Shown: positions 38,701-51,296, numbered from the stretch's first letter. The stretch is 64,000 nt of DNA from Gordonia sp. PP30 (GCF_023100845.1 NZ_CP095864.1:4154001-4218000); one strand, 5' to 3'. Translations and numbers: made by a program. The notes: generated from the letters alone by a model not told the origin.

Positions 38701-39555
38701 CCGGGGAACCACGACCTGCGCTTCGGCGAAGGCCTCTGCCAGCCCGGGCACCTCGGACGCCTGGGAGTAGAAGTCGGCGCGCAGGGCGAGCACCGGCACC
38801 ACCGAGCGGCCGGCGAGTCGTTCGCCGAGCCGCTCGGCGAACGCGGCGCGGTCCGCGCCGGTGCTCTGCGTCCACAGTTCCTCGTACTGGTCGATCACCA
38901 GCAGCGCGGGACCGCTCGCGGCATCGGCAGCGGCCGCCAGCCGGTCCAGGGCGACGTCGAGCGCGGCCACCGGACGGTCCCCGGGAGTCATCAGTACCGC
39001 GGGCATGCCGGCGAGCGCGCCGCCCTCGCGCGTCTGCGCCAACAGGCCGGCCTGCACCAGCGACGACTTGCCCGCCCCGGACGTCCCCACCACGACCACC
39101 GCCCGGCGCAGCACCGCACCGGGATCGCCCGGGGCCGGATCCACCGGGGCCTCGCTCCGCCGGCGAACCAGCGCCACCGCCCGGGCGATCACCTCGTCGC
39201 GGCCGAAGTACCGCGCGCTGTCGTCGGGGGTGAAGGGATCGAATCCGCGGTAGGGCGACGCGGCGCGCTGGCGACGTCGTCCACCGCGCCGGCCGGTCCG
39301 TTCCACCGCGGCCCACCACTCCTCGCGGCCGGCCGGATCGACGACGCCGCAGACGGTCAAGACCCTCTCGAACATCTCCCGGCTCGCCCGGGTCGGCGCG
39401 TGCTGCCCGGCGAACCAGCCGGCCACCGTGCCGACCAGCGCGTCGGCCTCCGCGGCCACCTCGCGAACACTCAGATCGTTGGCGAGCCGCAGCTCGGTGA
39501 GGGCCTTTCCGAGGTCCTCGCGACCGTAGACCGAGTCCGGTCCCAGCGTCGTCAT
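35728..39555 (-). CDS. HTH-nSTAND NTPase-WD40 repeat protein
   Basis: A 1275-residue STAND-type signalling ATPase. The N-terminal XRE-like helix-turn-helix spans about residues 12-60 (LRLANDLSVREVAAEADALV). The nSTAND1 NTPase follows, with Walker A GTSGAGKSS at 157-165, Walker B ALLVIDQYEELW at 217-228 and a winged-helix/helical region to about 510 (HEALLTAWPRLTGWL). A membrane helix lies near 537-560. About 650 residues of WD40-like beta-propeller repeats then run to the C-terminus (SPDGRRAAVATNSGQVRLLD, FSPDGKRIVAGGGNSEIWVW). Such proteins act as sensors or switches in actinobacterial signalling and sometimes in phage defence; the effector here is unclear. It is divergent from the LuxR-type gene. 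Confidence 0.9.
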   Translation of the reverse strand: MTTLGPDSVYGREDLGKALTELRLANDLSVREVAAEADALVGTVAGWFAGQHAPTRASREMFERVLTVCGVVDPAGREEWWAAVERTGRRGGRRRQRAASPYRGFDPFTPDDSARYFGRDEVIARAVALVRRRSEAPVDPAPGDPGAVLRRAVVVVGTSGAGKSSLVQAGLLAQTREGGALAGMPAVLMTPGDRPVAALDVALDRLAAAADAASGPALLVIDQYEELWTQSTGADRAAFAERLGERLAGRSVVPVLALRADFYSQASEVPGLAEAFAEAQVVVPRMTEEQLREVIVRPAETVGATVDDELVQLLLSDLAAPGSGGRVDAEVLPLLSHALRATWEQSDGRRLTVADYVKTGRIDGAVEQTAEEVYGELDSGEQTIARDLLLAMVNVDEDTVTRRTLHLDEVTGEPIHRVLEAFADARLLTLSATSVQVTHEALLTAWPRLTGWLDADRERLLLQRRLRALSEPWDADGRPDDLLPGRARLELFAPLEAGAESGVADRTSREFLRAGHQKVAQKDAAERRRTRQLRRFAWSAAIFGLVAVLAAVLAVIAGASAVHDRNDAERSRNETLSRQLAIQANQLRDRDPLLAAQLAMVAYRTAPTIEAQSTLIDTMAIGVPTRFTGAGGSLLLSRAGSLMVAASSSGQVRLFRLADDGIAGQIGEFRAADGTEEHLGGVALTPDGQTLLLGGHSLIQVWDVADPAHPRRTGAVPDVHGDANALTTSPNGEYLAAAELGAGLQVWRRGGASAGNADWRPVAVPGDPGTVSGAVEFTPDGRGLASSTVNQRVDLWAVDGDSLRPTGRIDLGWRDNQLAQGLAYSPDGKTLYAALRSRTIGVWDVADPAAPKRLPDLEGHTSYVSALDMGADGDTLVSAGADNTVQVYRLDRPGGAPRILPVAANSSSALLVGDHVVSASDDGRIQDWPPVTNRTVVGPKTVFQIPYSARSRRLLAADTEIDGRLTQWRVDDGALHSGGPVLLPPAGAVFSGAVVVTPDGDTATLGSVSGTVYFADYSDPARPHLLGSVLAGTGLNETVDYSAASHLAVTGGTDQRALTVVDAADLTAPRVAGTFDSGSGVWWVSLSPDGRRAAVATNSGQVRLLDLSDPAHPRAYPNPLDFNGSALAVRFSADGKRIVATSEDKSVAVADVSDPDHPRTVAVMTGPAGQLYSAAFSPDGKRIVAGGGNSEIWVWSLTGHGAREDVVLHSYPGTVFDVRFLTGGEIVAAGQGGLIMSWQIDSGDLVGAACARPGDRISRAEWGTYLPGVPYQQPC

Positions 39556-39715: not shown

Positions 39716-40051
39716 ATGCTTGTCGACGACCATGGCCCCGCGCCCGACGATCTCGTCGATGCCGCCGATCCGACGCGGCCACGGCATGTCCCTCGCCCGC
39801 GTTCGGCCGCGGACACCGGATCCCGCCGCCCCAACCTCTCGCAGCGCGAGATCGAGGTCCTGCTCACGTGGCTGCGCGCCGAGTCCAAGGAGGACGCGGC
39901 GCGCGAACTGTTCATCAGCCCGGCGACGGTGAGCACTCACATCATCCGGATCCGCGCCAAGTACGCCGCCGTCGGCCGCCCGGCCAAACGCAAGGCCGCG
40001 CTTTTCGCCCGCGCCGTCCAAGACGGATACACCACTCTCGACGAGTGGTGA
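39716..40051 (+). CDS. Small LuxR-type HTH regulator
   Basis: This 111-residue DNA-binding protein has a short acidic N-terminus and a C-terminal LuxR/GerE helix-turn-helix (LSQREIEVLLTWLRAESKED, AARELFISPATVSTHIIRIR). No receiver domain is present, so it is a stand-alone effector, possibly controlled by a partner. ATG 39716 has GAGGAG upstream. It is divergent from the nSTAND-WD40 gene across 160 bases that contain near-repeats CGTATCGACAAG / CGTATCGACTTG (about 39590 and 39601), a possible operator. It may regulate, or be regulated with, the nSTAND protein. Confidence 0.85.
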   Translation: MLVDDHGPAPDDLVDAADPTRPRHVPRPRSAADTGSRRPNLSQREIEVLLTWLRAESKEDAARELFISPATVSTHIIRIRAKYAAVGRPAKRKAALFARAVQDGYTTLDEW

Positions 40052-40312: not shown

Positions 40313-40346
40313 CGTAGTTGAATCCGTGTTCAGTTTCAACTACGAT
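40313..40346 (+). promoter_or_regulatory. Promoter and operator of the MaoC gene (site 1)
   Basis: TTGAAT (40318-40323) and TACGAT (40341-40346) with a 17-bp spacer form a good promoter. Overlapping them is a perfect inverted repeat, CGTAGTTGAA (40313-40322) and TTCAACTACG (40335-40344). The core TTGAATCCGTGTTCAGTTT (40318-40336) matches the motif found at three other promoters of this cluster (43001, 44642, 51277). It is probably a TetR-type operator. Confidence 0.75.
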
Positions 40347-40383
40347 GCCAGGTGAACCGACGATCACCTTCGAGGAGCCACTC

Positions 40384-40851
40384 GTGACACCGAAGCCGTA
40401 CCGGCCCACCACACCCCAGGACCTCATCGACCTGCTCGGCGTCGAACTGGGTCCGACGCGATGGCACCTTGTCGATCAGGCGAGGATCACGGCATTCGCC
40501 GACCTCACGGGCGACCATCAGTGGATTCACGTCGATCCCGAACGCGCGGCCACCAGCGCCTTCGGCTCGACGATCGCCCACGGCCTGTACAGCCTCTCGC
40601 GCACCCCGGCCTTCCTCGAAGAACTCATGGCATTCGACGGTTTCGCCCACTCACTGAACTACGGCTACGACAAGGTGCGCTTCGTGCACCCGCTCCCGGT
40701 CGACTCCCGCATCCGCCTACGGGCCCGTCTGACCAAGGTGGAGCAAGCCACCCCGGGCGGGGTCAAGGTGACCACCGAACTCACCGTCGAGGCCGAGGGC
40801 ATCGCGAAGCCGATTCTCGTGGCGGAGTCGATCGGGCTGTTCAGCAGCTGA
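40384..40851 (+). CDS. MaoC-type (R)-enoyl-CoA hydratase
   Basis: This 155-residue hotdog-fold hydratase adds water to enoyl-CoA. The active-site segment is FADLTGDHQWIHVDPERA, with the catalytic Asp and His of the MaoC/R-hydratase family, followed by FGSTIAHGLYSLSR. The GTG at 40384 is chosen for the AGGAG six bases upstream; in-frame ATG 40345 and TTG 40318 overlap the promoter. It is transcribed alone, but its promoter carries the same operator as the lactonase gene at 44804. It is the likely hydration step after the ACAD reaction in the proposed lactone pathway. Confidence 0.9.
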   Translation: MTPKPYRPTTPQDLIDLLGVELGPTRWHLVDQARITAFADLTGDHQWIHVDPERAATSAFGSTIAHGLYSLSRTPAFLEELMAFDGFAHSLNYGYDKVRFVHPLPVDSRIRLRARLTKVEQATPGGVKVTTELTVEAEGIAKPILVAESIGLFSS

Positions 40852-40926
40852 GTCCACGCCCGCCCCGCGCCACCCGCCCCCGCACGCGCGGGGAACCGGG
40901 CGTCGCGGCGACTCGATCGAGCAGGC

Positions 40927-41877
40927 TCACGGGACCAGGATCACCTTTCCCTGTACCCGCCGCCCCTCCAGCGCGAGGAGTGCCTGTGCGGCCTCGGAAA
41001 GTCGGTACCGGGCTCCCACCATCGGGCTCAGGGCCCCGCTGCGCAGGTGCGGCAGCATGGCATCCCACTCACCCCGGATATGACCGGGCCGCGAGAGGGC
41101 ATAGGCGCCCCACCCCACACCGATCACGGAGATGTTGTTCAACAGCAGCCGATTCACCTTGACCGTGGGAATCTCACCCGCAGTGAAGCCGATGACCAGG
41201 AGCCGACCGTGCTCGGCGAGCGTGCGCAGCGAATCGGTGAATCGGTCACCGCCTACCGGGTCGACGACGATGTCGACCTTGCCGCCGACACGCCCGCGGA
41301 AGCCGTCCGCGAGTACCACGTCGTCGGCTCCGGCGGCGAGGGCGACCGCGGCCTTCTCCTCGGATGAGACCACCCCGACGACCCGTCCGGCACCGAATGC
41401 CTTGGCAACCTGAATCGCCGCGGTGCCGATACCGCCCGCCGCACCGTGAACGAGCACCGATTCGCCTTCGGCGAGATGGCCGCGCTCGATGAGCGCGAAG
41501 TAACACGTCGCGTAGTTGAAGATGAACGCGGCGGCCTGATCGAAGGAGACCTCGTCGGGCAGTGCGAAAGTCAGCTGCGGCTGAGCCTGCACCTTCTCAG
41601 CGAATCCGCCGAGAAGGGAGAGTGCGGCCACCCGATCACCGGGGGCGAAGCCGCTCCCCTCCGGCGCGCTTTCGACGATCCCGGCCACCTCGGCCCCGGG
41701 CACGAACGGCAACTCCGGTGTGACCTGGTACAGACCGCGCGTCTGCAACAGCTCCGGGAAGGCGACACCCGCCGCCGCCACCGCGATGGTCACCAAGCCG
41801 GGCTCCGCCGGTTCTGGAACCTCAACGAATTCCACGGCTTCGGGGCCGTCAAGGGAGGTGATCTGGATGGCGTGCAC
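40927..41877 (-). CDS. Zeta-crystallin-type NADPH:quinone/enoyl oxidoreductase
   Basis: This 316-residue medium-chain dehydrogenase without structural zinc belongs to the quinone oxidoreductase group (AIQITSLDGPEAVEFVEVPE, PGAEVAGIVESAPEGSGFAP, VLVHGAAGGIGTAAIQVAKA cofactor motif, DPVGGDRF). It uses NADPH to reduce quinones or enoyl/enone substrates. The GTG at 41877 with AAAGGA upstream is taken as the start; the open frame runs back to 42033 but overlaps the preceding gene. It lies 76 bases downstream of another MDR enzyme and is probably in its operon. Confidence 0.88.
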   Translation of the reverse strand: MHAIQITSLDGPEAVEFVEVPEPAEPGLVTIAVAAAGVAFPELLQTRGLYQVTPELPFVPGAEVAGIVESAPEGSGFAPGDRVAALSLLGGFAEKVQAQPQLTFALPDEVSFDQAAAFIFNYATCYFALIERGHLAEGESVLVHGAAGGIGTAAIQVAKAFGAGRVVGVVSSEEKAAVALAAGADDVVLADGFRGRVGGKVDIVVDPVGGDRFTDSLRTLAEHGRLLVIGFTAGEIPTVKVNRLLLNNISVIGVGWGAYALSRPGHIRGEWDAMLPHLRSGALSPMVGARYRLSEAAQALLALEGRRVQGKVILVP

Positions 41878-41953
41878 GAGGTGATCCTTTCGGAGGCGGC
41901 AATCACTAGTGGGGAGGCGGACGGGCGAGACGGGTATCAGTCGCCGGGCGAAG

Positions 41954-42955
41954 CTAGCAACGCAGCAGCAGCTTTCCGGTGTTGATCCCTTCGAAGAGGC
42001 CGAGCAGGGCTCGCGGGAACTCCGCGACGCCACCGTCGAGAACCGTCTCCGCGGTGACGAACCGCCCCTGCGCGATCAGCGCCCCGATGGCCGCCACCGC
42101 CTCGCCGTAGCGGTCTTGGTAGTCGGTCACGAGGAAGCCCGCCATGGCGGCCCGAGAGATCAGCAACGACATGTAGCGGCGCGGTCCGGCAGGCACCGTC
42201 TCGGCGTTGTAGGTGGAGATCGCACCACAGATGGCGATGCGCGCGCCCAGCGCGAGATTGGCCAAGACCGCTTCGAGGAGTTCGCCGCCGACATTGTCGA
42301 AGTACACGTCGACGCCCTCGGGCGCGACCGCGCGAAGCCTGCGCGACAGGTCGCCGCCATGACGGTCGATCGTCTCGTCGCAGCCGATGTCCCGCAGCCA
42401 GGCGAGCTTGTCGGGCCCACCGGCGACCCCGATCACGCGACATCCCTTCGCCGCCGCGAGTTGCACGACCGTGCTGCCCACCGCGCCCGCCGCCGCCGAC
42501 ACCACGACGGTCTCGCCCGGCCGGGCCCGGGCCACGTCCTCGAGGCCGAAGTAGGCGGTCATACCGGCCATTCCGAGGGCGCCGAGCCACGTCTCCGGGG
42601 AGGCGACATCGAGGTCGAGCCGCACCACACCGACACCGTCGGACAGCGCGTATTCGCGGACCCCGAACATTCCACTGACCATCTCCCCGACGGCGAAGTC
42701 GTCATGGCGCGAGGCGACGACCTCGCCGGCGCCATTGGCCCGCATGACCGCCCCGAGCTCGACCGGCGGCACATACGAGCGGGCGTCGTTCAGCCATCCC
42801 CGCATGGCGGGGTCGAGGGACACCAGTGCGGTCCGCACGACGAACTCGCCCGGCCCCGGCTCCGGAACCTCGACGGTGGCGATATCCCAGGTCCCGTCGT
42901 CGGGCAGCCCAACTGGACGCCGCGCGAGGCGAACCTCCGTTGATGTCCAGCTCAT
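41954..42955 (-). CDS. NADP-dependent enone/alkenal reductase (PTGR/MDR family)
   Basis: This 333-residue MDR protein is of the leukotriene-B4-dehydrogenase / prostaglandin-reductase type (SLDPAMRGWLNDARSYVPPV, GMFGVREYALSD, LGALGMAGMTAYFGL, VVSAAAGAVGSTVVQLAAAK, VDVYFDNVGGELL, GAISTYN). Such enzymes reduce the double bond of alpha,beta-unsaturated carbonyls with NADPH. Operator-like site 2 lies 46 bases upstream of the ATG. It probably leads an operon with the quinone oxidoreductase and may recycle unsaturated intermediates of lactone or fatty-acid breakdown. Confidence 0.88.
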   Translation of the reverse strand: MSWTSTEVRLARRPVGLPDDGTWDIATVEVPEPGPGEFVVRTALVSLDPAMRGWLNDARSYVPPVELGAVMRANGAGEVVASRHDDFAVGEMVSGMFGVREYALSDGVGVVRLDLDVASPETWLGALGMAGMTAYFGLEDVARARPGETVVVSAAAGAVGSTVVQLAAAKGCRVIGVAGGPDKLAWLRDIGCDETIDRHGGDLSRRLRAVAPEGVDVYFDNVGGELLEAVLANLALGARIAICGAISTYNAETVPAGPRRYMSLLISRAAMAGFLVTDYQDRYGEAVAAIGALIAQGRFVTAETVLDGGVAEFPRALLGLFEGINTGKLLLRC

Positions 42956-43000
42956 GGCGATTCCCCTGCTCTCGAAGTGACGTCGACGTCACCCTCCCAC

Positions 43001-43019
43001 AACTTGAATCTGAACTCAA
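43001..43019 (-). promoter_or_regulatory. Shared operator motif (site 2)
   Basis: Reading the minus strand, TTGAGTTCAGATTCAAGTT lies upstream of the MDR gene (ATG at 42955) and downstream of the first TetR gene. It matches the cluster motif TTGAnTTCRGRTTCAnnTT. Confidence 0.65.
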
Positions 43020-43067
43020 CTTATTGTTCGTGGGACGCGGGCCGCCGGGTGGACGTCGGCGACGATC

Positions 43068-43763
43068 TCAATCGCCGCGCAGCTCCGGACTGGTCAGGCC
43101 GAGCGCATTGGTCCACATCCGCGTGGCCGTCTCTACCAGCCGATCGGTCGCACTCGGCGGCCTGCCGTCCTCGTCGACGTCGATGACGTAGGTGTCGTAG
43201 GCCAACCGCGAGATCATCCCCGACAACGCCTTCGCAGCCATCGCAGCGTCGACGCGGCGATCGGCGAGTCCGCGCGATTGCAGATCGGCGATCGCCCGCG
43301 CATTGCGCGTGACGAAAGCCCTGCTTCGGGCGATGCGCAGCGCACGGAACCGCGGGTCGACGGCGGCCACCTGCTGCAAGAGGTCGTTCAGCCGCGCGTT
43401 GCGGCGGTAGGCCTCGAAATACGCGCGATTGCTGGCCGCGATGATGGCGACCGGATCGTCGGTCTCGGAGATCCGGCCGGTGCCCGGATGCAACATGTCA
43501 CTCTGCGCCTCGCACAGGACGGCCGCGAAGACCTCGTCCTTGCCCTCGAACCAGGTGTAGAAGCTACCGATCGAGCAGTTCGCCTCGGCGACGATGTCGA
43601 CGAGACGGGAATCGACGAAGCCGTCCCGTTCGAAGACCCGGCGGGCGGAGGCGATCAGCGCCGACCGGGTGCGCTCCCCACGCGCGGTCTGCGGAGTCGC
43701 TCCCAGCTTCCCGGAATCAAAGAGGGCAGGGGCCTCGATCTCTCCATCGATATCCGAGGACAT
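43068..43763 (-). CDS. TetR-family regulator 1 (QsdR candidate)
   Basis: This 231-residue TetR repressor has an N-terminal HTH (RGERTRSALIASARRVFERD, VDIVAEANCSIGSFYTWFEG) and a ligand domain with DMLHPG and NRAYFEAYRRNARL. It is clearly paralogous to the regulator at 47314, sharing RGERTR, FERDGF, DMLHPG and NRAYFEAYRRNA. In Rhodococcus a TetR regulator (QsdR) represses the lactonase operon and responds to gamma-lactones; either paralogue could play that part. A GGTACT -10-like hexamer lies just before the ATG. Confidence 0.9.
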   Translation of the reverse strand: MSSDIDGEIEAPALFDSGKLGATPQTARGERTRSALIASARRVFERDGFVDSRLVDIVAEANCSIGSFYTWFEGKDEVFAAVLCEAQSDMLHPGTGRISETDDPVAIIAASNRAYFEAYRRNARLNDLLQQVAAVDPRFRALRIARSRAFVTRNARAIADLQSRGLADRRVDAAMAAKALSGMISRLAYDTYVIDVDEDGRPPSATDRLVETATRMWTNALGLTSPELRGD

Positions 43764-43858
43764 GCCAGTACCTTAGTACCCCGCCGACCATGCAAAGCGG
43801 GCGCCGCAACCTGCCCGAGGCAGGTCACCCGGCCCGGCCGGCACGCCGCGGTGCGACG

Positions 43859-44575
43859 CTAGGGCAGCGCAGGCAATCGGAAGCGGTCACTCAATTCGCG
43901 GGCGGTCCGCGCACCGTCGCGGTGCAGCAGCCCGGCGATCCCCAGACGTGCGGCACCCTCGAGGTTCTGTCGCAGGTCGTCGATCATCACGGCGCTGCGC
44001 GGCGCGACGTCCAGCCGTTCACAGGCGATCCGGTAGATCTCCCGGGACGGCTTGCGGATACCGACCTCCGAGGAGATGACGACGACGTCCGCCAACGCAT
44101 CGAGATCGAACCCCCGGTAGGTGTCACGACCGAAGGCATTGGACACCAGCGCCACCGGCGTCCCCGCCGCACGCAACCGATGCAGCATGGCCTCGGTCTC
44201 GGCGTCGGCACGGAGCCCCGATTGCATCCGGGCGGACAGGCCCTGAGCCTCGGCGTTCAGTCCGTGCGCCCGCAATCGCGCGGCGAAGCCGGCATCGAAC
44301 TCGTCGGCGCCGATGCGGCCGCTCTCGTGCTCGGCCAGGAGCGACCGTGACCGGTCATCGCCGGACAGCAGCTGCAGCGGCAGGTCGGCGTCGCCGAGCT
44401 CGCGCCCGAACTGCCGGAAAGCGTCGAACACACTCGTCGTGACCACTCCCCCGAAGTCCACCAGAACCGCCGTGCGGCCGTGGTCGCAGAGCGGTTCGGC
44501 GGCGAGGTCGGCCGGGTCCACGGCGGCTCGCCGGCCGATCTCGTCGCCTCCGGCGCCGCTGTTCGTCTGCACCAT
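43859..44575 (-). CDS. HAD-superfamily hydrolase (ACAD10 N-domain-like)
   Basis: This 238-residue HAD hydrolase has motif I AVLVDFGGVVTT (nucleophile Asp; the usual second Asp is Gly, as in the DFGGVL subgroup), motif II VALVSNAFG, motif III Lys in EVGIRKPSREIY, and motif IV SAVMIDDLRQN. The DFGG type is the one fused to the N-terminus of ACAD10-like proteins. With Gly in place of the acid/base Asp, classical phosphatase activity may be weak. The ATG at 44575 is used. It is divergent from the lactonase gene and shares the intergenic operator at 44642, so it belongs to the same regulon. Confidence 0.85.
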   Translation of the reverse strand: MVQTNSGAGGDEIGRRAAVDPADLAAEPLCDHGRTAVLVDFGGVVTTSVFDAFRQFGRELGDADLPLQLLSGDDRSRSLLAEHESGRIGADEFDAGFAARLRAHGLNAEAQGLSARMQSGLRADAETEAMLHRLRAAGTPVALVSNAFGRDTYRGFDLDALADVVVISSEVGIRKPSREIYRIACERLDVAPRSAVMIDDLRQNLEGAARLGIAGLLHRDGARTARELSDRFRLPALP

Positions 44576-44641
44576 TGCCCGCACACCCTTCTCGTCGGCG
44601 GCTGCCCACCGATCCGTCGTCTCCCCATCGCTTAAGTGAGC

Positions 44642-44671
44642 TTGACTTCAGATTCATATTAAGAGCAGAAT
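44642..44671 (+). promoter_or_regulatory. Promoter and operator of the lactonase operon (site 3)
   Basis: TTGACT (44642-44647) and CAGAAT (44666-44671) with an 18-bp spacer form the likely promoter. TTGACTTCAGATTCATATT (44642-44660), overlapping the -35 and spacer, matches the shared cluster motif. A repressor bound here would block the promoter; it may also serve the divergent HAD gene. Confidence 0.7.
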
Positions 44672-44803
44672 AGGGCAACCGGAGGTGATACCCATCACGT
44701 TCGATGACTCCTATGAACCGAGTCTCGAATCGCGCTCACCGGCTGAGCCGATCGTCCGGTTGCGAAAACGCGGCATCACCGCCGCCCGTACGAAGGGCAA
44801 CCC

Positions 44804-45763
44804 ATGAGTACCGTGCAGACCGTCACAGGCGCCATCGACTCCGCCGACCTGGGGAAAGTACTCGTCCACGAGCACATCTTCGTGCTCGGCGAGGAACACC
44901 GCGAAAACTACCAGGACGATTGGAATGAGGACGAGAAGGTCGCCGACGCCGTGCGGGACCTGAACGAGCTCAAGGGCCTGGGCATCGACACCATTCTCGA
45001 CCCCACCGTGCTCGGTCTCGGCCGCTATCTCCCCCGGATCCAGCGCATCGCCGCACAGACCGAGCTGAACATCGTCGTGGCGACGGGGCTGTACACCTAC
45101 AACGACATTCCCTTCCAGTTCCACTACACCGGGCCGGGCCTCCTGTTCGACTGCCCGGAGCCGCTGGTGACGCTGTTCGTCCGCGACCTCACCGAGGGAA
45201 TCGCCGACACCGGTGTCCGCGCGTCCTTCCTCAAGTGCGCCATCGAAGAGCCCGGACTCACTCCGGGCGTGGAGCGTGTCATGCGCGCCGTCGGCCAGAC
45301 CTCGGTGCAGACCGGAGCACCGATCACCGTGCACACCAATCCGCACACCCAGTCCGGACTGGTGGCCCAGCGTGTGCTCAAGGAAGAGGGCGTCGATCTA
45401 CGCAAGGTCGTCATCGGCCACTCCGGCGACTCGACCGACCTGGACTACTTGATGAAGATCGCCGACGCCGGCTCCGTTCTCGGTATGGACCGCTTCGGCC
45501 TCGACGTGTTGCTGCCCTTCGAAGATCGGATCAACACCATCGTCCAACTCGCCGAGCGCGGCTACGCCGACCGGATAGCCCTGGCGCACGACGCGTCCTG
45601 CTTCATCGACTGGTTCGCCCCCGAGGCCAAGCGCCAGGCCGTGCCCAAATGGAATTTCCGCCATATCAGCGAAGACGTCCTGCCCGCACTGCGTGAACGC
45701 GGAGTCACCGAGGAGCAGATCACCACGATGCTGGTGGACGTCCCGCGCGCCTACTTCGAGTGA
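44804..45763 (+). CDS. qsdA: Phosphotriesterase-like lactonase, QsdA type
   Basis: This 319-residue binuclear-metal amidohydrolase of the PTE/PLL family opens N-acyl-homoserine lactone and gamma-lactone rings. It closely resembles Rhodococcus QsdA (VHEHIFVLGEEHRENYQDDW, DPTVLGLGRYLPRIQRIA, YTYNDIPFQFHYTGPG). Metal ligands are H22 and H24 (VHEH), K144 in ASFLKCAIEE (carbamylated bridge), H177 (TVHTN), H206 (IGHSGDST) and D263 (AHDASC). GAAGGG precedes the ATG. The CoA ligase follows after 15 bases, as in the qsdA-qsdC operon. The product of a gamma-lactone would be a 4-hydroxy acid, ready for that ligase. Confidence 0.9.
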   Translation: MSTVQTVTGAIDSADLGKVLVHEHIFVLGEEHRENYQDDWNEDEKVADAVRDLNELKGLGIDTILDPTVLGLGRYLPRIQRIAAQTELNIVVATGLYTYNDIPFQFHYTGPGLLFDCPEPLVTLFVRDLTEGIADTGVRASFLKCAIEEPGLTPGVERVMRAVGQTSVQTGAPITVHTNPHTQSGLVAQRVLKEEGVDLRKVVIGHSGDSTDLDYLMKIADAGSVLGMDRFGLDVLLPFEDRINTIVQLAERGYADRIALAHDASCFIDWFAPEAKRQAVPKWNFRHISEDVLPALRERGVTEEQITTMLVDVPRAYFE

Positions 45764-45778
45764 CGGGAGAACTCACCG

Positions 45779-47281
45779 ATGTCGAATCCCGTAGCCGCAC
45801 TCTGGCGAAACGCCGAGTCGGTTCCCGACCGGATCGCCGTGCGCAGCGGAGACCGCACCCTGACCTATCGCGAGTTGCGCAGGCGGATCGCCGTCGGCGC
45901 CGCCGACTTCGCCGAACTCGGCGTCGAGCGCGGTGACCGCGTCCTGCTGATCGCCCCATCGATTCCCGAGTTCGCAATCACCTACTACGCGCTGCACGCC
46001 CTGGGCGCCACCGTGATCACCATGAACGTGATGTCGACGACGCACGAGATCGACTACGTCGTCGAGGACTCGGGGACGTCGTTGATCGTGGCCTGGGAGG
46101 ACTGCCTCGACGCGGCGGAGTTCGTGGCCCGCGAGCGCGGTCTGCCCTTCCGCACCGTGCTGCCGTACGAGTCCGTCTCCGCCGAGGCTGGCGCGGTGAG
46201 CGAGTACGTCGAGCTCGCCGATGAAGACACCGCAGTGGTGCTGTACACCTCGGGCACGACCGGCAAACCCAAGGGCGCTCAACTCACGGTCGGCAATGTC
46301 AACGCGGTGCCGGTGGCCTTCCGGGACGCCCTGCGCGTCGGGGAGCATGAACGCTGGGCCACCGCGCTCCCGCTCTTTCACTGCTTCGGCCAACTGGTCG
46401 TGATGCACGATGCGCTCACATGGAGCGGCACGCTTTCGCTGCTGAGTCCGTTCACCCCGGGCGAGTTCATGAATCGGCTCCGTGACGAGAAGATCACCAT
46501 CGCATGCGGCGTGCCGACCATGTGGAACGCGATGCTGCAGATCAGCGGCGACTACGTTCCCGAAGACTTCGCAGACCTCCGGCTGGCCTGCTCCGGCGGT
46601 GCCTCGCTTCCCGGCGAGGTGATCCGCGCCTTCGAGGAGCAGTTCGGCGCCACCATCCTCGAGGGCTACGGACTCACCGAGACGGCCGGCACGGCAACGT
46701 TCAGGGATCTCAGCGCCCCGCTGAAAGTGGGTGCGGTCGGACGTGCGCTGCCCGGGTTCCGCGCGCAGGCGCGCGACCCCGAGGGCCGGTCGCTACCCCC
46801 GGGAACCGTGGGCGAGATCTTCCTCGCCGGCCCGTCGGTGATGAAGGGCTACTGGAATCGCCCGGAAGCCACCGCGGAGGCACTGGTCGACGGTTGGTTG
46901 GCCACCGGCGACCTGGGCACGATCGACGAGGACGGTGACATCCGAATCGTCGACCGGAAGAAGGACCTGATCATCCGTGGCGGGTACAACGTCTACCCCC
47001 GCGAAGTGGAGGAGATTCTCTACGGTCATCCCGACATCGTCGAGGCCGCGGTGATCGGCGTACCCGACGACCACTACGGGGAGGAGATCGCGGCCGTCGT
47101 CGCCCTGCGCAGCCCGGACGCCCTCGACCACGATTCCCTGCGCTCCTGGTGCAAGGAGCGACTGAGCGCCTACAAGGTTCCCCGATTGATCTCGTTCGTC
47201 GACGAACTGCCCAAGGGCGCCACCGGCAAGATCCTTAAACGAGCGATCAACACCGACGGGCTGTCGGCGCCGGCCCGGTAG
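45779..47281 (+). CDS. Acyl-CoA ligase (QsdC/LvaE-like)
   Basis: This 500-residue ANL-family ligase activates a carboxylic acid with ATP and CoA. Motifs: VVLYTSGTTGKPKGAQLT (P-loop), GYGLTETAGTATF, ATGDLGTIDEDGDIRIVDRK and the C-terminal catalytic Lys in PKGATGKILKRAI. It is co-transcribed with the lactonase (15-base gap), exactly as qsdC follows qsdA in Rhodococcus. It is inferred to convert the 4-hydroxy acid released by the lactonase to 4-hydroxyacyl-CoA. The acyl chain length cannot be deduced from sequence. Confidence 0.9.
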   Translation: MSNPVAALWRNAESVPDRIAVRSGDRTLTYRELRRRIAVGAADFAELGVERGDRVLLIAPSIPEFAITYYALHALGATVITMNVMSTTHEIDYVVEDSGTSLIVAWEDCLDAAEFVARERGLPFRTVLPYESVSAEAGAVSEYVELADEDTAVVLYTSGTTGKPKGAQLTVGNVNAVPVAFRDALRVGEHERWATALPLFHCFGQLVVMHDALTWSGTLSLLSPFTPGEFMNRLRDEKITIACGVPTMWNAMLQISGDYVPEDFADLRLACSGGASLPGEVIRAFEEQFGATILEGYGLTETAGTATFRDLSAPLKVGAVGRALPGFRAQARDPEGRSLPPGTVGEIFLAGPSVMKGYWNRPEATAEALVDGWLATGDLGTIDEDGDIRIVDRKKDLIIRGGYNVYPREVEEILYGHPDIVEAAVIGVPDDHYGEEIAAVVALRSPDALDHDSLRSWCKERLSAYKVPRLISFVDELPKGATGKILKRAINTDGLSAPAR

Positions 47282-47304
47282 ACCTCCGTCGGACGCGTCC
47301 CCGA

Positions 47305-47339
47305 CGAGCCCGGTCACTCCGCTCGAGTGACCGGGCTCG
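47305..47339. terminator. Bidirectional terminator between ligase and TetR 2
   Basis: A perfect 15-bp stem, CGAGCCCGGTCACTC (47305-47319) with GAGTGACCGGGCTCG (47325-47339), and a 5-base loop. It lies between the convergent ligase and TetR genes and overlaps the TetR stop codon (47314-47316), so the last TetR codons form part of the hairpin. Confidence 0.88.
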
Positions 47340-47952
47340 CCAGTTTGATCGCATTGGCCCACAGCAGGGTCGCGGTCTCGACCAATTCATCGATCTCTGC
47401 TTCGTCGCCGAGCGCGAAGGCGTTGTACGCCATCCGGGAGACCATCCCGGACAGCGCTCGCGCGGCCCGGTCCGGATCGACATCCGGATCGGCGAGGCCC
47501 CGCTCCTGCAGTCGCTCGATCTGCCGGGCGTTCCGCTCGGCGAAGACCCGGCCGCGGGCGCGGCGCTTATCGCGGAACTCGGGGCTGATCCCGGAGACCT
47601 GCTCGAGTACCAAACGGAGCTTCGCGTTACGCCGATACGCCTCGAAGTAGGCCCGGTTGGCCGCTTCCAAGACCACCACCGGATCATCGTCGGCATCGAC
47701 ATGGGGAAACCCGGGGTGCAGCATGTCCTCGTGCGCCATCTCGAAGACCGCATCGAGGATCTCTTCCTTGCTCTGGAAGTACGTGTAGAAGGTGCCCGTC
47801 GAGCACGAGGCCTCGGCGGTGATGTCCGTCAGCCGGGAGTTCTGAAACCCGTCACGCTCGAACACGGTGCGGGCCGCGGCGACGAGCGCCGCGCGCGTGC
47901 GCTCACCGCGTGGCGTGAGCGTCTTCTTTGTCGCCTCTCCAGCCTGCTGCAT
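47314..47952 (-). CDS. TetR-family regulator 2 (paralogue)
   Basis: This 212-residue TetR repressor has an HTH (RGERTRAALVAAARTVFERD, LTDITAEASCSTGTFYTYFQ) and a ligand domain sharing DMLHPG and NRAYFEAYRRNAKL with the regulator at 43068. The ATG at 47952 is used; the open frame to 48024 overlaps the upstream gene's 3' region. It is 75 bases downstream of the kinase gene and in line with it, so it is probably the last gene of the SDR-ACAD-APH-TetR operon and would provide feedback on the regulon. Confidence 0.9.
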   Translation of the reverse strand: MQQAGEATKKTLTPRGERTRAALVAAARTVFERDGFQNSRLTDITAEASCSTGTFYTYFQSKEEILDAVFEMAHEDMLHPGFPHVDADDDPVVVLEAANRAYFEAYRRNAKLRLVLEQVSGISPEFRDKRRARGRVFAERNARQIERLQERGLADPDVDPDRAARALSGMVSRMAYNAFALGDEAEIDELVETATLLWANAIKLASPVTRAE

Positions 47953-48027
47953 GCGTCGATCATCCCAGCACGCCCCGCGGGCAGGCGACCCGGCGCCCCG
48001 TCGAGCGGGACCACGCCGGGTCATCGC

Positions 48028-49086
48028 TCACACACCGGCGAGATCGGCCACCTCGGTCGCCTTGCCCACCAGGGCGTCGACCACCTCGGTGGTGGGCACG
48101 CCCGCGCGGGCACGATTCTTCGGGTTGTCCTTCGCCCGTCGCACGACGCCCTCGGCGATGATCGCAATCTTCCAGAGTCCGAGCGCATGCCAATAGCGGA
48201 GCGCACGAGCGTCCCGTCCGGTCCGCGCCAGGTATCCGGCGGCCAGCTGGTCACGATCGGGAAATCCCTCGAGCAGCTCCACCGGCGCCGCCGACAGCGG
48301 GGCCTCGCCGGGGGCCGGCCAATAGGCGAGCGTGCTGCCGATGTCGGCGAGCGGATCGCCGAGCGTGGACAGCTCCCAATCCAGCACGGCCCGTACGCGA
48401 CCAGCCGCCGGATCGACCATCACATTGCGGATGTGGAAGTCACCGTGCACCAGACGGACTTCCTTCTGCTCCGGAATGTCCGCGGACAGCCTGCGCGTGA
48501 GGTCGTCCAGGGCGACGATCTCGCGCGTCTTGGACTTCTCCCACTGCGCGCTCCACCGGCGCAGCTGACGCTGGGCATACGAACGGTGGCTCGCCAGATC
48601 GGCCAGACCGATCCGGTCGAGATCGAGGCCGTGGATATCGGCCAGCGTGTCGAGCATCGATGTTCCGACGGCCTCCCGGGCCCGGGCGGTCATCGCCTCG
48701 GCGGCCGGTAGATTGTCGAGCACCTCCGCGTCGACGTAGTCCATCACCACCAGCGGCACGGCACTGACCGCTGGATCGGTGCATACCCCCCAGACGCGAG
48801 GGACCGGAACGTCCGTGCCGGCGAGAGCGGTGAGGATACGGGCCTCGCGGGCGACGTCGTGTGCCGACGCCAGCAGGTCACCGAGCGGCGGCCGTCGGAT
48901 CACCCATCGCCCGCCGGCGGCGTCCGCCAGCAGATAGGTGAGATTGGACTGACCCGTCCCCACGCGCCGCGCGGTCAGGGCGCCGGCCGGCTCGATGCCC
49001 AAGCCGGCGAGCCAGCCGCGTAGCGCGTTGGGGTCGACGCCGGGAATCTCAGTTGTCGCCCGCGGTTCCCGGTCGTGATCACTCAT
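48028..49086 (-). CDS. APH-family kinase (ACAD10/11 and LvaA-like)
   Basis: This 352-residue aminoglycoside-phosphotransferase-fold kinase has an ATP site (RVGTGQSNLTYLL, WVIRRPPLG), the catalytic loop HGDFHIRN at 214-221 and the metal-binding D236 in VLDWELSTLGDPLAD. RRPPLG...GDFHxRN is the pattern of the kinase domain in ACAD10/11 and of stand-alone partners of acyl-CoA dehydrogenases. Known members phosphorylate the hydroxyl of 4-hydroxyacyl-CoA so that it can be eliminated. It lies 11 bases downstream of the ACAD gene, strongly supporting a joint function. Confidence 0.92.
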   Translation of the reverse strand: MSDHDREPRATTEIPGVDPNALRGWLAGLGIEPAGALTARRVGTGQSNLTYLLADAAGGRWVIRRPPLGDLLASAHDVAREARILTALAGTDVPVPRVWGVCTDPAVSAVPLVVMDYVDAEVLDNLPAAEAMTARAREAVGTSMLDTLADIHGLDLDRIGLADLASHRSYAQRQLRRWSAQWEKSKTREIVALDDLTRRLSADIPEQKEVRLVHGDFHIRNVMVDPAAGRVRAVLDWELSTLGDPLADIGSTLAYWPAPGEAPLSAAPVELLEGFPDRDQLAAGYLARTGRDARALRYWHALGLWKIAIIAEGVVRRAKDNPKNRARAGVPTTEVVDALVGKATEVADLAGV

Positions 49087-49097
49087 TCGGCGGCCGG

Positions 49098-50372
49098 TCA
49101 GTACCGGGCGCTCAGCGCGTCGTCGGACACGCCCGCGACGGTCTCCGGAATGCTGGCCGCGTCGCGGTAGGGGCGGAGTTCGCGACGGGCGATCGCACGC
49201 TTGTGCACCTCATCGGGGCCATCGGCGAGGCGCAGCGTCCGGATGTGGGCATAGGCCATCGCGAGCGGGAAGTCATCGGTGACACCCGCGCCGCCGTGCA
49301 CCTGGATGGCCCGGTCGATGATCTTCAAGGCCACGTTCGGGGCGGCGACCTTGATCGCGGCGATCTCCGTCGCGGCGGCCTTGTTGCCGACGGTGTCCAT
49401 CATGTAAGCGGCCTTGAGCGTCAGCAGGCGCACCATCTCGATCTCGATCCGCGCTTCAGCGATCCAGTCCTGGATGTTGGCGCGATCGGCCAAGAGCGCA
49501 CCGAAGGTGACTCGCCCGGCGGCGCGCGCACACATCAACTCGAGCGCCCGCTCGGCCATTCCGATGGTGCGCATGCAGTGGTGGATGCGCCCAGGCCCCA
49601 GCCGCGCCTGAGCGATCGCAAAGCCCTCCCCCTCGCCCTTGAGTACGTCGCCGGCCGGCACCCGAACGTTCTCGAAGACCAGTTCCCCGTGACTCTCGCG
49701 GTCGACGTAGCCGAAGACCGGGAGATTGCGCACGATGGTGAGGCCGGGCGCATCGGCGGGTACCACCATCATCGACTGCTGGCGATGGGTCGGCGCGCTC
49801 GGATCGGTCTTGCCCATCACGATGAGGACTGTGCAGTCCGGGCGAACCGCATTGGAGGCGAACCACTTGCGGCCGTTGAGCACGTATTCGTCGCCGTCGC
49901 GCTCCATGCGCAACTCGATATTGGTCGCATCGGAACTGGCCGCGGCGGGTTCGGTCATCGCGAAGGCGGAAGCGATCTCGCCGTCGAGCAGCGGCTGCAG
50001 GTAGCGCTCCTTGTGCTCATCGGTACCGAACAGAGTGAGTACTTCGATGTTCCCGGTGTCGGGAGCATTGCAATTGAAGACCTCCGGCGCCCACACCACT
50101 CGGCCCATGATCTCGGCCAGGTGCGCGTACTCCAGATTGCTCAGTCCCGGTCCCCAGTCCGGGTGAGGGTGAAAGAGATTCCACAGGCCTGCCGCCTTTG
50201 CTTCGGCCTTGAGGTCGAGCAGTATCTGCGGGCTGGCGTGCGGGTCGGCACTGGCGCGCATCTGTTCCTCGTACACCGCCTCGTTGGGGTAGATCCGGGT
50301 CTGCATGAAGTCCAGCAGCCGAACCCGGTACTCCTGGGCACGCTCGGAAGGCTCGAACAGGGTCGTGGTCAT
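49098..50372 (-). CDS. Acyl-CoA dehydrogenase, ACAD10/11-LvaC type
   Basis: This 424-residue flavoprotein has the acyl-CoA dehydrogenase fold ([65 protein letters not shown]). At the place of the usual YEGT catalytic Glu it reads [13 protein letters not shown], which is characteristic of ACAD10/11-type enzymes. In that group the domain acts on 4-phosphorylated acyl-CoA made by the partner kinase, expelling phosphate to give an enoyl-CoA. The ATG at 50372 has GAGGAGA six bases upstream. It sits between the SDR (39-base gap) and the kinase (11-base gap). Confidence 0.92.
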
Positions 50373-50411
50373 CGTCGTCTCCTCACCACAGTGTCGGTCA
50401 CGCGTCATTGA

Positions 50412-51233
50412 TCAGTCGTCATCGGGGCTGGTCAACCCCTGCTGCACGCGACGCATGCCGCGCAGCCAACGGTCGTAGTCGCTCCCCTTGTGCCGGTACA
50501 TCCCGAGCACTTCCGGGTGCGGCAGAATAAGGAAGGTCTCGCTCTCCAGCCCGGACATCACGTCGTCGGCGACCCGCTCGGGTGTCAGCACGTCACCGGC
50601 GGACTCGACCGCCCGCTGCATGAGCAGCGCGGACTCGTCATCGATGTGATCGGGACGAAGAAGCTTCGTATCGACACCCATCGGACACAGGCAACTGACC
50701 CGCACGCCGCAGTCGCCATACGTCACGGCGAGCCACTCGGCAAAGCCCACCGCAGCGTGTTTGGTCACCGAGTACGTGGCCGAACCGAGTTGGGTGAGCA
50801 GCCCGGCGGCGGAAGCGGTGGCGATGAAGTAGCCCTCGCCCCGCGACACCCACTCGGGCACCAGCCGCCGGGCGGCCCGGACATGGGCCAGCAGGTTGAT
50901 GTCCAGCGCGGCGTCCCATTGGTCGTCGCTCGCCTCCAGCCCCGGGCCGCCCGCGATGCCCGCGTTGGCGAAGTAGAGGGCCACCGGACCGAAGCGCTGC
51001 TCCGCCAGTTCGATCGCCGTCTCGATGTGTTCCACGCTCGACGCATCCCCGGCCAGCGCGGCTGCGGAGCCGGCCACCCTCCGATTCAGCATGTCGGCGA
51101 CGCCCCGTGCCGCGGTGGCCGCGATATCGGTCACGACGACCTTCGCACCTCGATCCACGAGGGCACCGGCGATCGCGGCCCCGATCCCGCCGCCGCCGCC
51201 CGTGACGATGGCAACGCGTCCTGCTATCTCCAC
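50412..51233 (-). CDS. Short-chain dehydrogenase/reductase
   Basis: This 273-residue classical SDR has cofactor motif VAIVTGGGGGIGAAIAGAL, an NAG motif as FANAGIAGGP, catalytic Ser in ATASAAGLL and YSVTKHAAV (YxxxK), and SCLCPMGVDTKLL. The Asp after strand 2 (VVTDIAA) suggests NAD(H). Start at GTG 51233, with AAGGGGG upstream; GTG 51239 is possible. It is the first gene of the SDR-ACAD-kinase-TetR operon, whose promoter carries operator site 4. It could oxidise the 3-hydroxyacyl-CoA product or interconvert 4-hydroxy and 4-oxo acids, as LvaD does. Confidence 0.9.
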   Translation of the reverse strand: MEIAGRVAIVTGGGGGIGAAIAGALVDRGAKVVVTDIAATAARGVADMLNRRVAGSAAALAGDASSVEHIETAIELAEQRFGPVALYFANAGIAGGPGLEASDDQWDAALDINLLAHVRAARRLVPEWVSRGEGYFIATASAAGLLTQLGSATYSVTKHAAVGFAEWLAVTYGDCGVRVSCLCPMGVDTKLLRPDHIDDESALLMQRAVESAGDVLTPERVADDVMSGLESETFLILPHPEVLGMYRHKGSDYDRWLRGMRRVQQGLTSPDDD

Positions 51234-51276
51234 CGGCACCCCCTTTTGCGTCACCCGCGAGCCTCGGAAATTGAAC

Positions 51277-51296
51277 TTGGCTTCGGGTTCAAACTT
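51277..51296 (-). promoter_or_regulatory. Shared operator motif (site 4)
   Basis: TTGGCTTCGGGTTCAAACTT, upstream of the SDR operon (minus strand). It matches the cluster motif and, together with TTGAAC at 51271, forms a wider inverted repeat TTGAAC...GTTCAA (51271-51292). Confidence 0.65.

Follow-up and report, generated by a model that had tools for sequence, protein, structure and literature searches.

A candidate TetR-controlled cluster for phosphorylative degradation of gamma-lactones and 4-hydroxy fatty acids in Gordonia sp. PP30

Plain β-oxidation reportedly cannot, for the most part, handle 4-hydroxy acids (PMC12440821), and a phosphorylative route for their breakdown is described in Proteobacteria and mammals. 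The lvaABCDE operon of Pseudomonas putida KT2440 converts levulinate via 4-hydroxyvaleryl-CoA and 4-phosphovaleryl-CoA to enoyl-CoA, and lvaABCD genes are reported from Alpha-, Beta- and Gammaproteobacteria (Rand et al., cited in PMC6692424). ACAD10-type pairs of a kinase and an acyl-CoA dehydrogenase (ACAD) are described to convert 4-hydroxyacyl-CoA to 2-enoyl-CoA, and Burkholderia orthologues can stand in for the domains of ACAD10 (PMC11342911). In Rhodococcus erythropolis, the lactonase QsdA opens N-acyl-homoserine lactones (AHLs) (PMC6262395) and is reported to help the cell assimilate lactones from outside (PMC3689677, PMC6476934). For the opened chain, 'a beta- or omega-oxidation step' is given as the fate, and the contiguous downstream genes are suspected to be members of the pathway (PMC3689677). 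Here, we analyse a stretch of 64,000 nt of the 4.48 Mb genome of Gordonia sp. PP30, referred to as the window, in which a gene cluster at about positions 40316 to 51294 combines a QsdA-type lactonase and an acyl-CoA ligase with an APH-fold kinase and an ACAD of the ACAD10/11 type.

We consider it likely that this cluster is one regulon, in which paired EthR_C-type TetR proteins act as repressors at a shared 26-bp palindrome, and that it degrades gamma-lactones and 4-hydroxy fatty acids phosphorylatively. Gene identities, residues of the active sites, shared palindromes and conserved linkage are computed results; from these we infer the reactions and the substrate, as well as the role of the palindromes as operators and of the TetR proteins as their binders. 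The parts are of known kinds, and the novelty lies in how they are combined, in the shared palindrome and in the HAD partner. A literature search found no paper that joins a lactonase with the phosphorylative 4-hydroxy acid route or assigns the genes downstream of R. erythropolis qsdA to that route, none on a lactonase together with ACAD11 and none on levulinic acid, the lva operon and Rhodococcus. If the proposal is true, the phosphorylative route would extend to actinobacterial lactone use, and the cluster would suggest how such bacteria feed on lactone carbon. Candidate enzymes can now be named for the missing steps of lactone breakdown, both here and downstream of qsdA in the biocontrol agent R. 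erythropolis, as can a candidate regulator-operator pair, which is open to experiment. In addition, the cluster offers a simple three-gene system for studying the puzzling HAD domain of ACAD10.

Gene content and enzyme assignments

The genes of the cluster and its four putative operators are given below with their strand, where they have one; operator scores are those of a position weight matrix (PWM) built without the window or, where stated, without Gordonia.

40316..40341, putative operator 1 at the maoC promoter, AGTTGAATCCGTGTTCAGTTTCAACT; PWM 29.3, without Gordonia 29.4; one mismatch to the genome-wide pattern
40384..40851 (+), maoC, MaoC-type enoyl-CoA hydratase; PF01575, E=4e-22
40927..41877 (-), mdrB, MDR protein, PIG3/quinone-oxidoreductase-like; PF00107/PF13602; best NCBIfam TIGR02824, below cut-off
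41954..42955 (-), mdrA, MDR protein, curcumin/LTB4-reductase-like; PF16884/PF00107; NF058644 at 334 bits, below the cut-off of 440
43002..43027, putative operator 2 at the mdrA promoter, ACTTGAATCTGAACTCAACTTATTGT; PWM 29.6, without Gordonia 29.2
43068..43763 (-), tetR1, repressor-like; PF00440, EthR_C; 56% identical to TetR2
43859..44584 (-), HAD protein, motif I degenerate (DFGGV); PF00702; best NCBIfam TIGR02247, below cut-off
44634..44659, putative operator 3 at the divergent HAD/qsdA promoters; PWM 21.7, without Gordonia 23.0
44804..45763 (+), qsdA, QsdA-type phosphotriesterase-like lactonase; PF02126, 304 bits
45779..47281 (+), acyl-CoA ligase, proposed 4-hydroxyacyl-CoA ligase; PF00501/PF13193
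47314..48024 (-), tetR2, repressor-like, at the end of the SDR-ACAD-APH operon; PF00440, EthR_C
48028..49086 (-), APH-fold kinase of the LvaA/ACAD10/11 type, proposed 4-hydroxyacyl-CoA kinase; matches to 3dxp, 9o56 and ACAD11
49098..50408 (-), acyl-CoA dehydrogenase of the ACAD10/11-LvaC type, proposed 4-phosphoacyl-CoA phosphate lyase; ACAD11, 450 bits
50412 to about 51233 (-), SDR oxidoreductase, candidate 3-hydroxyacyl-CoA dehydrogenase or LvaD-like 4-oxoacyl-CoA reductase; PF00106, 137 bits
51269..51294, putative operator 4 at the SDR-ACAD-APH-tetR2 promoter, AATTGAACTTGGCTTCGGGTTCAAAC; PWM 28.8, without Gordonia 28.9

All genes that a preliminary description of this DNA had named are present as open reading frames (ORFs) in the places given, and Pfam agrees for each. 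It had also spoken of a single TetR gene, which is correct as to family but not as to number, as there are two, 56% identical in sequence. Judged from the gaps, the probable operons are maoC (+), mdrA-mdrB (-), HAD-tetR1 (-), qsdA-ligase (+) and SDR-ACAD-APH-tetR2 (-). The outermost possible start codons of the SDR and MaoC overlap operators; a sequence resembling a ribosome-binding site and comparison with R. erythropolis point to the starts at 51233 for the SDR and 40384 for maoC. The best PDB match of the SDR, searched with a query that began one codon upstream of the preferred start, is the (3R)-hydroxyacyl-CoA dehydrogenase 2et6 with only 112 bits.

The cluster resembles lvaABCDE in bringing together an APH kinase, an LvaC-type ACAD, an acyl-CoA ligase and an SDR. 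Unlike that operon, it also encodes a lactonase, a MaoC protein, two MDR proteins and a HAD protein, and its two regulators are of the TetR type by Pfam and not of the type of the sigma54-type regulator LvaR. No LvaB turned up among the window ORFs of at least 100 amino acids, a set in which no search aimed at LvaB was made; LvaB is also reported to be absent from Pseudomonas citronellolis LA18T (PMC6692424). With the qsdR-qsdA-qsdC(-qsdD) genes of R. erythropolis, the cluster shares a QsdA (75% identity) followed by an acyl-CoA ligase; it differs in having no QsdR counterpart, in a HAD gene divergent to qsdA and in the kind of ligase.

The window QsdA matches the structures 4if2 and SsoPox with 419 and 269 bits, respectively. 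Its residues H22, H24, K144, H177, H206 and D263 (positions counted by hand) align with the columns of those SsoPox residues that we take to be the metal ligands, and PF02126 places the protein in the phosphotriesterase (PTE) fold family, in line with the earlier notion of a QsdA-type lactonase with all metal ligands. By family, it is predicted to open gamma-lactones or AHLs. The ligase gene starts 15 bp past the qsdA stop codon, as previously noted. Its product is 35% identical to QsdC versus 52% to another R. erythropolis ligase, LigB, which rules out that it is the QsdC orthologue. Elsewhere in the PP30 genome (C1:2096872-2097825), a second QsdA-like gene of the PTE family is found, the product of which is 60% identical to the window QsdA.

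Among known structures, the window ACAD matches ACAD11 (8v3u) with 450 bits and the best ordinary ACAD with 152 bits; the only others above 400 bits are the ACAD11 structures 8v3v and 2wbi, and 4hr3, for which no function is named. In mouse ACAD11, R626, H634 and R637 are described as specific for ACAD10/11, D753 as catalytic and R631 as common to ACADs (PMC12440821). R269, R274, H277, R280 and D396 of the window ACAD align with R626, R631, H634, R637 and D753, and thus the phosphate-binding Arg, His and Arg with the HCMR motif as well as the catalytic Asp are all kept. The kinase matches 3dxp (175 bits), 9o56 (171 bits) and the kinase domain of ACAD11 (145 bits). Its D216, N221 and R173 (counted by hand) align with the catalytic D220 and N225 and the substrate-side R176 of the ACAD11 kinase; the comparison covered these three residues of a published set that also includes R86. 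The window proteins therefore carry the same diagnostic kinase and ACAD residues as mammalian ACAD11, and the catalytic type of the pair is well assigned by sequence because of the ACAD11 bit scores, the kept residues and the published work on ACAD10. The 120 kinase relatives listed are all 331 to 372 amino acids long with no fusion among them, the closest named one being from Gordonia iterans (79%). A second APH-ACAD pair is encoded elsewhere in the genome (C1:2383719-2385885, L104); two SDR genes precede it, and it is followed by an ORF that by eye resembles a FAD-linked oxidase.

The most unusual point of the locus is the HAD protein. Its motif I reads DFGGV, so that the second Asp of the DxD motif is replaced by Gly, and the same motif occurs in 14 of the 14 HAD orthologues (>40% identity) found across the 80 qsdA loci described below. 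In ACAD10, the HAD domain is reported to keep only the first Asp of DxD and to restrain the kinase (PMC11342911), and the lva operon is described as encoding no homologue of this domain (PMC12440821). As separate genes, HAD, kinase and ACAD of the window resemble the domain set of ACAD10. The likeness of the HAD proteins consists of this motif and the partners, and the arrangement differs: ACAD10 is one protein, whereas the window has three separate genes in a lactonase-linked TetR regulon. The three genes are adjacent in Janibacter (HAD-ACAD-APH-TetR) and in three Nocardia loci (SDR-HAD-ACAD-APH; L037, L038 and L043). No longer protein carrying a window-like HAD was found at E<=1e-6 among 7995 scored candidates, which is a weak test because only that number was scored. 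The preliminary description had listed the HAD gene correctly and given it no role, although the HAD domain of ACAD10 is a specific precedent. By analogy, we propose that the protein may act as a kinase-restraining partner.

A shared palindrome and its candidate repressors

The palindrome was first spotted by eye at the promoters of qsdA, the SDR gene, maoC and mdrA. The pattern ACTTGAA-N12-TTCAAGT, with no more than two mismatches in its 14 arm positions, occurs 41 times in 80 qsdA loci, whereas 200 permuted arms gave a mean of 0.53 sites and a maximum of 7 in the same loci. The 28 unique sites of these 80 loci, without the window, went into a 26-bp PWM. In the window, exactly four sites score at least 18, and all of them lie at cluster promoters: 43002 (29.6), 40316 (29.3), 51269 (28.8) and 44634 (21.7). 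The next independent window site scores 11.0, and the 52.2 kb outside the cluster contain no site of at least 12. A PWM lacking all 18 Gordonia loci, for which 15 unique sites are left, puts the same four sites on top (29.4 to 23.0), followed by one of 13.4.

Where at least one cassette gene is present (52 loci, 997,268 bases), 100 sites score 18 or more, spread over 42 of these loci; the 28 loci without such genes (512,530 bases) contain 1. Since the 80 loci also supplied the sites behind the PWM, this comparison is in part circular. Of the 100 sites, 81 lie at cluster gene starts and 19 elsewhere. Likewise in-sample, a site of at least 18 is found in 33 of the 34 qsdA loci with an ACAD orthologue, L048 being the exception. 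The permuted-arm control, the window itself and ACAD loci collected later are cleaner tests. Among these later loci, which are outside the model, 18 of 20 carry the palindrome; L137 duplicates L085, a record already among the 80 loci, so 17 of 19 new loci have a site. At the qsdA promoter itself, the palindrome is present in 17 of the 80 loci (Gordonia 11, Nesterenkonia 3, Brevibacterium 2, Streptomyces 1).

Genome-wide, a fuller pattern with up to three mismatches yields 90 sites versus 16 in the control, and operator 4 is the only site without a mismatch in the 4.48 Mb among the matches listed. The simpler pattern CTTGAA-N12-TTCAAG with up to two mismatches shows no genome-wide excess (23 sites versus 65 in a backward control); it is thus the PWM that carries the case for a regulon. 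One 22-mer is repeated in the pattern matches listed (C1:71884, 223351, 1070777, 1104679, 2181259), and these are probably copies of an insertion sequence.

TetR1 and TetR2 have closely similar N-terminal DNA-binding parts; they are the candidate binders of the palindromes, which are putative operators. QsdR is ruled out as the identity of TetR2: the two match with 17 bits (E 0.22), and QsdR (PDB 4za6) contains TetR_C_36 versus EthR_C in the window proteins. This comparison was made with TetR2 and covers TetR1 via the 56% identity between them. The likeness to qsdA-qsdC under QsdR that had been drawn before thus holds neither for the ligase nor for the regulators.

A further near-perfect site among the matches listed, C1:217038, lies in another β-oxidation locus of the same genome (L107, C1:207000-226900). 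L107 has closely similar palindromes at L107:3049 and L107:10037 and encodes its own related TetR (35-38%), and for these reasons it is probably a sister regulon and not a member of the cluster; cross-talk is possible. An extension of the regulon beyond the cluster in its own genome was accordingly rejected, with the site at C1:217038 assigned to L107 and its own TetR.

Linkage of qsdA with the kinase/ACAD cassette

The 80 qsdA loci were compared with flanks of up to 10 kb; they include two near-identical pairs, and several are ended by contig ends. An ACAD orthologue (at least 68% identity) is present in the flank in 34 of 80 loci and 8 of 17 genera: Gordonia 12/18, Janibacter 6/7, Nesterenkonia 3/3, Nocardia 6/21, Rhodococcus 3/7, Brevibacterium 2/9, Skermania 1/1 and Streptomyces 1/2, and none was found in the 12 loci of the other 9 genera. 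The preliminary description had named rare linkage in other genomes as a finding that would speak against it; at this frequency, the survey did not refute it. In two loci of the R. erythropolis group that were counted as negative (L050, L051), the ACAD orthologue lies just past the flank.

In a survey of 201 genomes of the family, an ACAD orthologue (E<=1e-185) was found in 85, qsdA (at least 70% identity) in 39 and both in 27; the best 8 candidates per genome were scored, so the counts could miss some, and 16 genomes with QsdA matches of 58-64% were kept out of the qsdA-positive group. The orthologue occurs in 27 of the 39 genomes with qsdA versus 58 of the 162 without (Fisher P 2.4e-4, a guide only, as species are not independent). 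Among the 27 genomes with both, the genes are no more than 10 kb apart in 15 and no more than 26 kb apart in 18 (distances read by hand); in the rest, they lie 115 kb apart (one genome), 1.7 Mb apart on the same contig (one) or on different contigs (seven). Among genomes lacking a close qsdA, 20 ACAD loci were inspected: 6 have a QsdA-like gene (53-60%) inside the cluster, and a seventh such locus was detected by ORF clustering. In two loci of Nocardia cyriacigeorgica (L065, L070), an APH gene (60%) sits directly between qsdA and its ligase gene with no ACAD nearby. Other loci of this species (L055, L058, L068) have no APH gene at that place.

The R. erythropolis counterpart, strain NBRC 15567 (L105), has the order QsdR-qsdA-qsdC, MFS transporter, TetR, HAD, second ligase, TetR, MaoC, SDR, ECH, ACAD, SDR, APH, with more genes of the β-oxidation type after APH. 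The transporter and the 4-hydroxy acid cassette are thus directly downstream of the qsd genes, the cassette starting about 3.4 kb past qsdA and the ACAD gene lying 9.8 kb downstream of it. ACAD and APH are 79% and 59% identical to those of the window, respectively, and the QsdR of this locus was confirmed as the protein of PDB 4za6. The MFS transporter of R. erythropolis has been named qsdD (PMC4640858), and its family is present in 6 of 21 loci compared by ORF clustering, all six of which contain a qsdA-like gene.

Proposed route and competing explanations

In the proposed route, an alkyl gamma-lactone would be opened by QsdA, and the downstream ligase would convert the product to 4-hydroxyacyl-CoA. 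The APH kinase would then phosphorylate the 4-hydroxyl group, perhaps restrained by the HAD protein as in ACAD10, and the ACAD10/11-type ACAD would remove the phosphate to yield 2-enoyl-CoA. Hydration and oxidation could be carried out by MaoC and the SDR, the latter of which might alternatively or additionally interconvert 4-oxo and 4-hydroxy compounds like LvaD, before thiolysis by an enzyme encoded outside the cluster. Three findings support the earlier reading that the lactonase and kinase/ACAD halves belong to one regulon and one route: the four shared putative operators, the linkage across genera and the ACAD and kinase residues in common with ACAD11. The cluster had also been put forward as complete, which it is not, because no thiolase is found by Pfam among its eleven proteins. 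A use of AHL carbon by this route, as previously suggested, is chemically unlikely: the phosphorylative step fits gamma-alkyl lactones and not the N-acyl-homoserine that results from AHL opening, and the chemistry as a whole suits alkyl gamma-lactones better than AHLs.

Several observations weigh against a single regulon with a single route. Operator 3, the one at qsdA, has the lowest score of the four and is nearer to HAD, with 50 bp between it and the HAD start and 145 bp between it and that of qsdA. In R. erythropolis, QsdR is reported to control qsdA (PMC6262395), and the four palindromes of L105 are found at the promoters of the transporter and the cassette and none at qsdA; on this distribution, qsdA of R. 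erythropolis answers to QsdR and the cassette probably to the other TetR proteins. Ten of the 52 cassette loci lack a palindrome of at least 18, five of them being Gordonia loci with the SDR only, and L048, which has both ACAD and APH, is also among the ten. Furthermore, 46 of the 80 qsdA loci have no ACAD orthologue in the flank, some owing to contig ends, and 58 of the 85 ACAD-bearing family genomes have no close qsdA. The second APH-ACAD pair of PP30 (L104; ACAD 59-60% identical) is accompanied by neither lactonase, ligase nor palindrome, and its existence means that the cluster pair is not the only candidate 4-hydroxyacyl-CoA route of the cell. Three Gordonia loci (L011, L016, L031) keep qsdA, tetR2, ACAD and SDR and have lost APH and the ligase, the best APH elsewhere in these genomes being 34% identical. 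In G. alkanivorans and relatives (L020-L023, L025), only qsdA and a convergent SDR gene are found, with no palindrome of at least 18; contig ends shorten L021 and L022, and a search of the genomes of L020, L023 and L025 for the ACAD gave matches of at most 59%. In these reduced Gordonia loci, qsdA is accompanied by the SDR more consistently than by the kinase, for which a simple pathway gives no reason.

Some of these points bear on what the regulon is for. The same regulon could clear 4-hydroxy fatty acids or 4-hydroxyalkenals that arise in the cell itself through lipid peroxidation or the turnover of mycolates; since lactones form spontaneously from 4-hydroxy acids, QsdA would then serve repair and not feeding. 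Two MDR proteins of the curcumin/LTB4-reductase and PIG3 types, one with its own palindrome, are consistent with this idea, as are the presence of QsdA in only some carriers of the cassette and the reported handling of endogenous 4-hydroxy acids by mammalian ACAD10/11 (PMC12440821, PMC11342911). However, a role in external lactone assimilation is reported for QsdA of R. erythropolis (PMC3689677, PMC6476934), and the MFS transporter (qsdD, PMC4640858) recurs in 6 of 21 loci, each with a qsdA-like gene. We therefore regard a clearance function as unlikely, though it is the strongest competitor of lactone degradation. Considerably less probable is that the two halves are merely co-regulated neighbours, with QsdA and its ligase acting on lactones or AHLs via ordinary β- or omega-oxidation, the published fate of the opened chain (PMC3689677), and the APH-ACAD pair acting on 4-hydroxy acids of unrelated origin, for example levulinate-derived 4-hydroxyvalerate. 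Such a division would suit the Gordonia species that have qsdA and lack APH or ligase, and the different regulator of R. erythropolis qsdA, but alkyl gamma-lactone opening yields exactly the 4-hydroxy acid for the other half, the linkage recurs in 8 genera with different gene orders, and the palindrome is found at the qsdA promoter in 17 of 80 loci from four genera.

That the cluster serves quorum quenching proper, with an AHL as the natural substrate and the kinase/ACAD route consuming N-acyl-homoserine, is highly improbable. Opening of an AHL leaves N-acyl-homoserine, which has a primary 4-hydroxyl and a 2-acylamido group; to our knowledge, no enzyme of the ACAD10/11-LvaC class acts on this compound, and Pfam detects no amidase or homoserine enzyme among the eleven cluster proteins. 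What favours an AHL substrate is the opening of AHLs by R. erythropolis QsdA (PMC6262395), to which the window QsdA is 75% identical. Returning to the phosphorylative degradation of lactones, it is tempting to speculate that QsdA first arose as the entry enzyme of an actinobacterial phosphorylative 4-hydroxy acid pathway with quorum quenching as a by-product, and that the HAD-kinase-ACAD trio is a free-standing bacterial counterpart of human ACAD10 whose HAD protein acts as an in-trans brake of the kinase; this wider idea is tentative, and we would sooner bet against it than for it.

Two further genes adjoin the cluster on the side of maoC. The gene at 35728-39555 (-) encodes a protein of 1275 amino acids that combines an nSTAND1 NTPase domain (347 bits) with WD40-type beta-propellers at its C-terminus, and a small LuxR-type helix-turn-helix protein is encoded at 39716-40051 (+), between the nSTAND gene and maoC.

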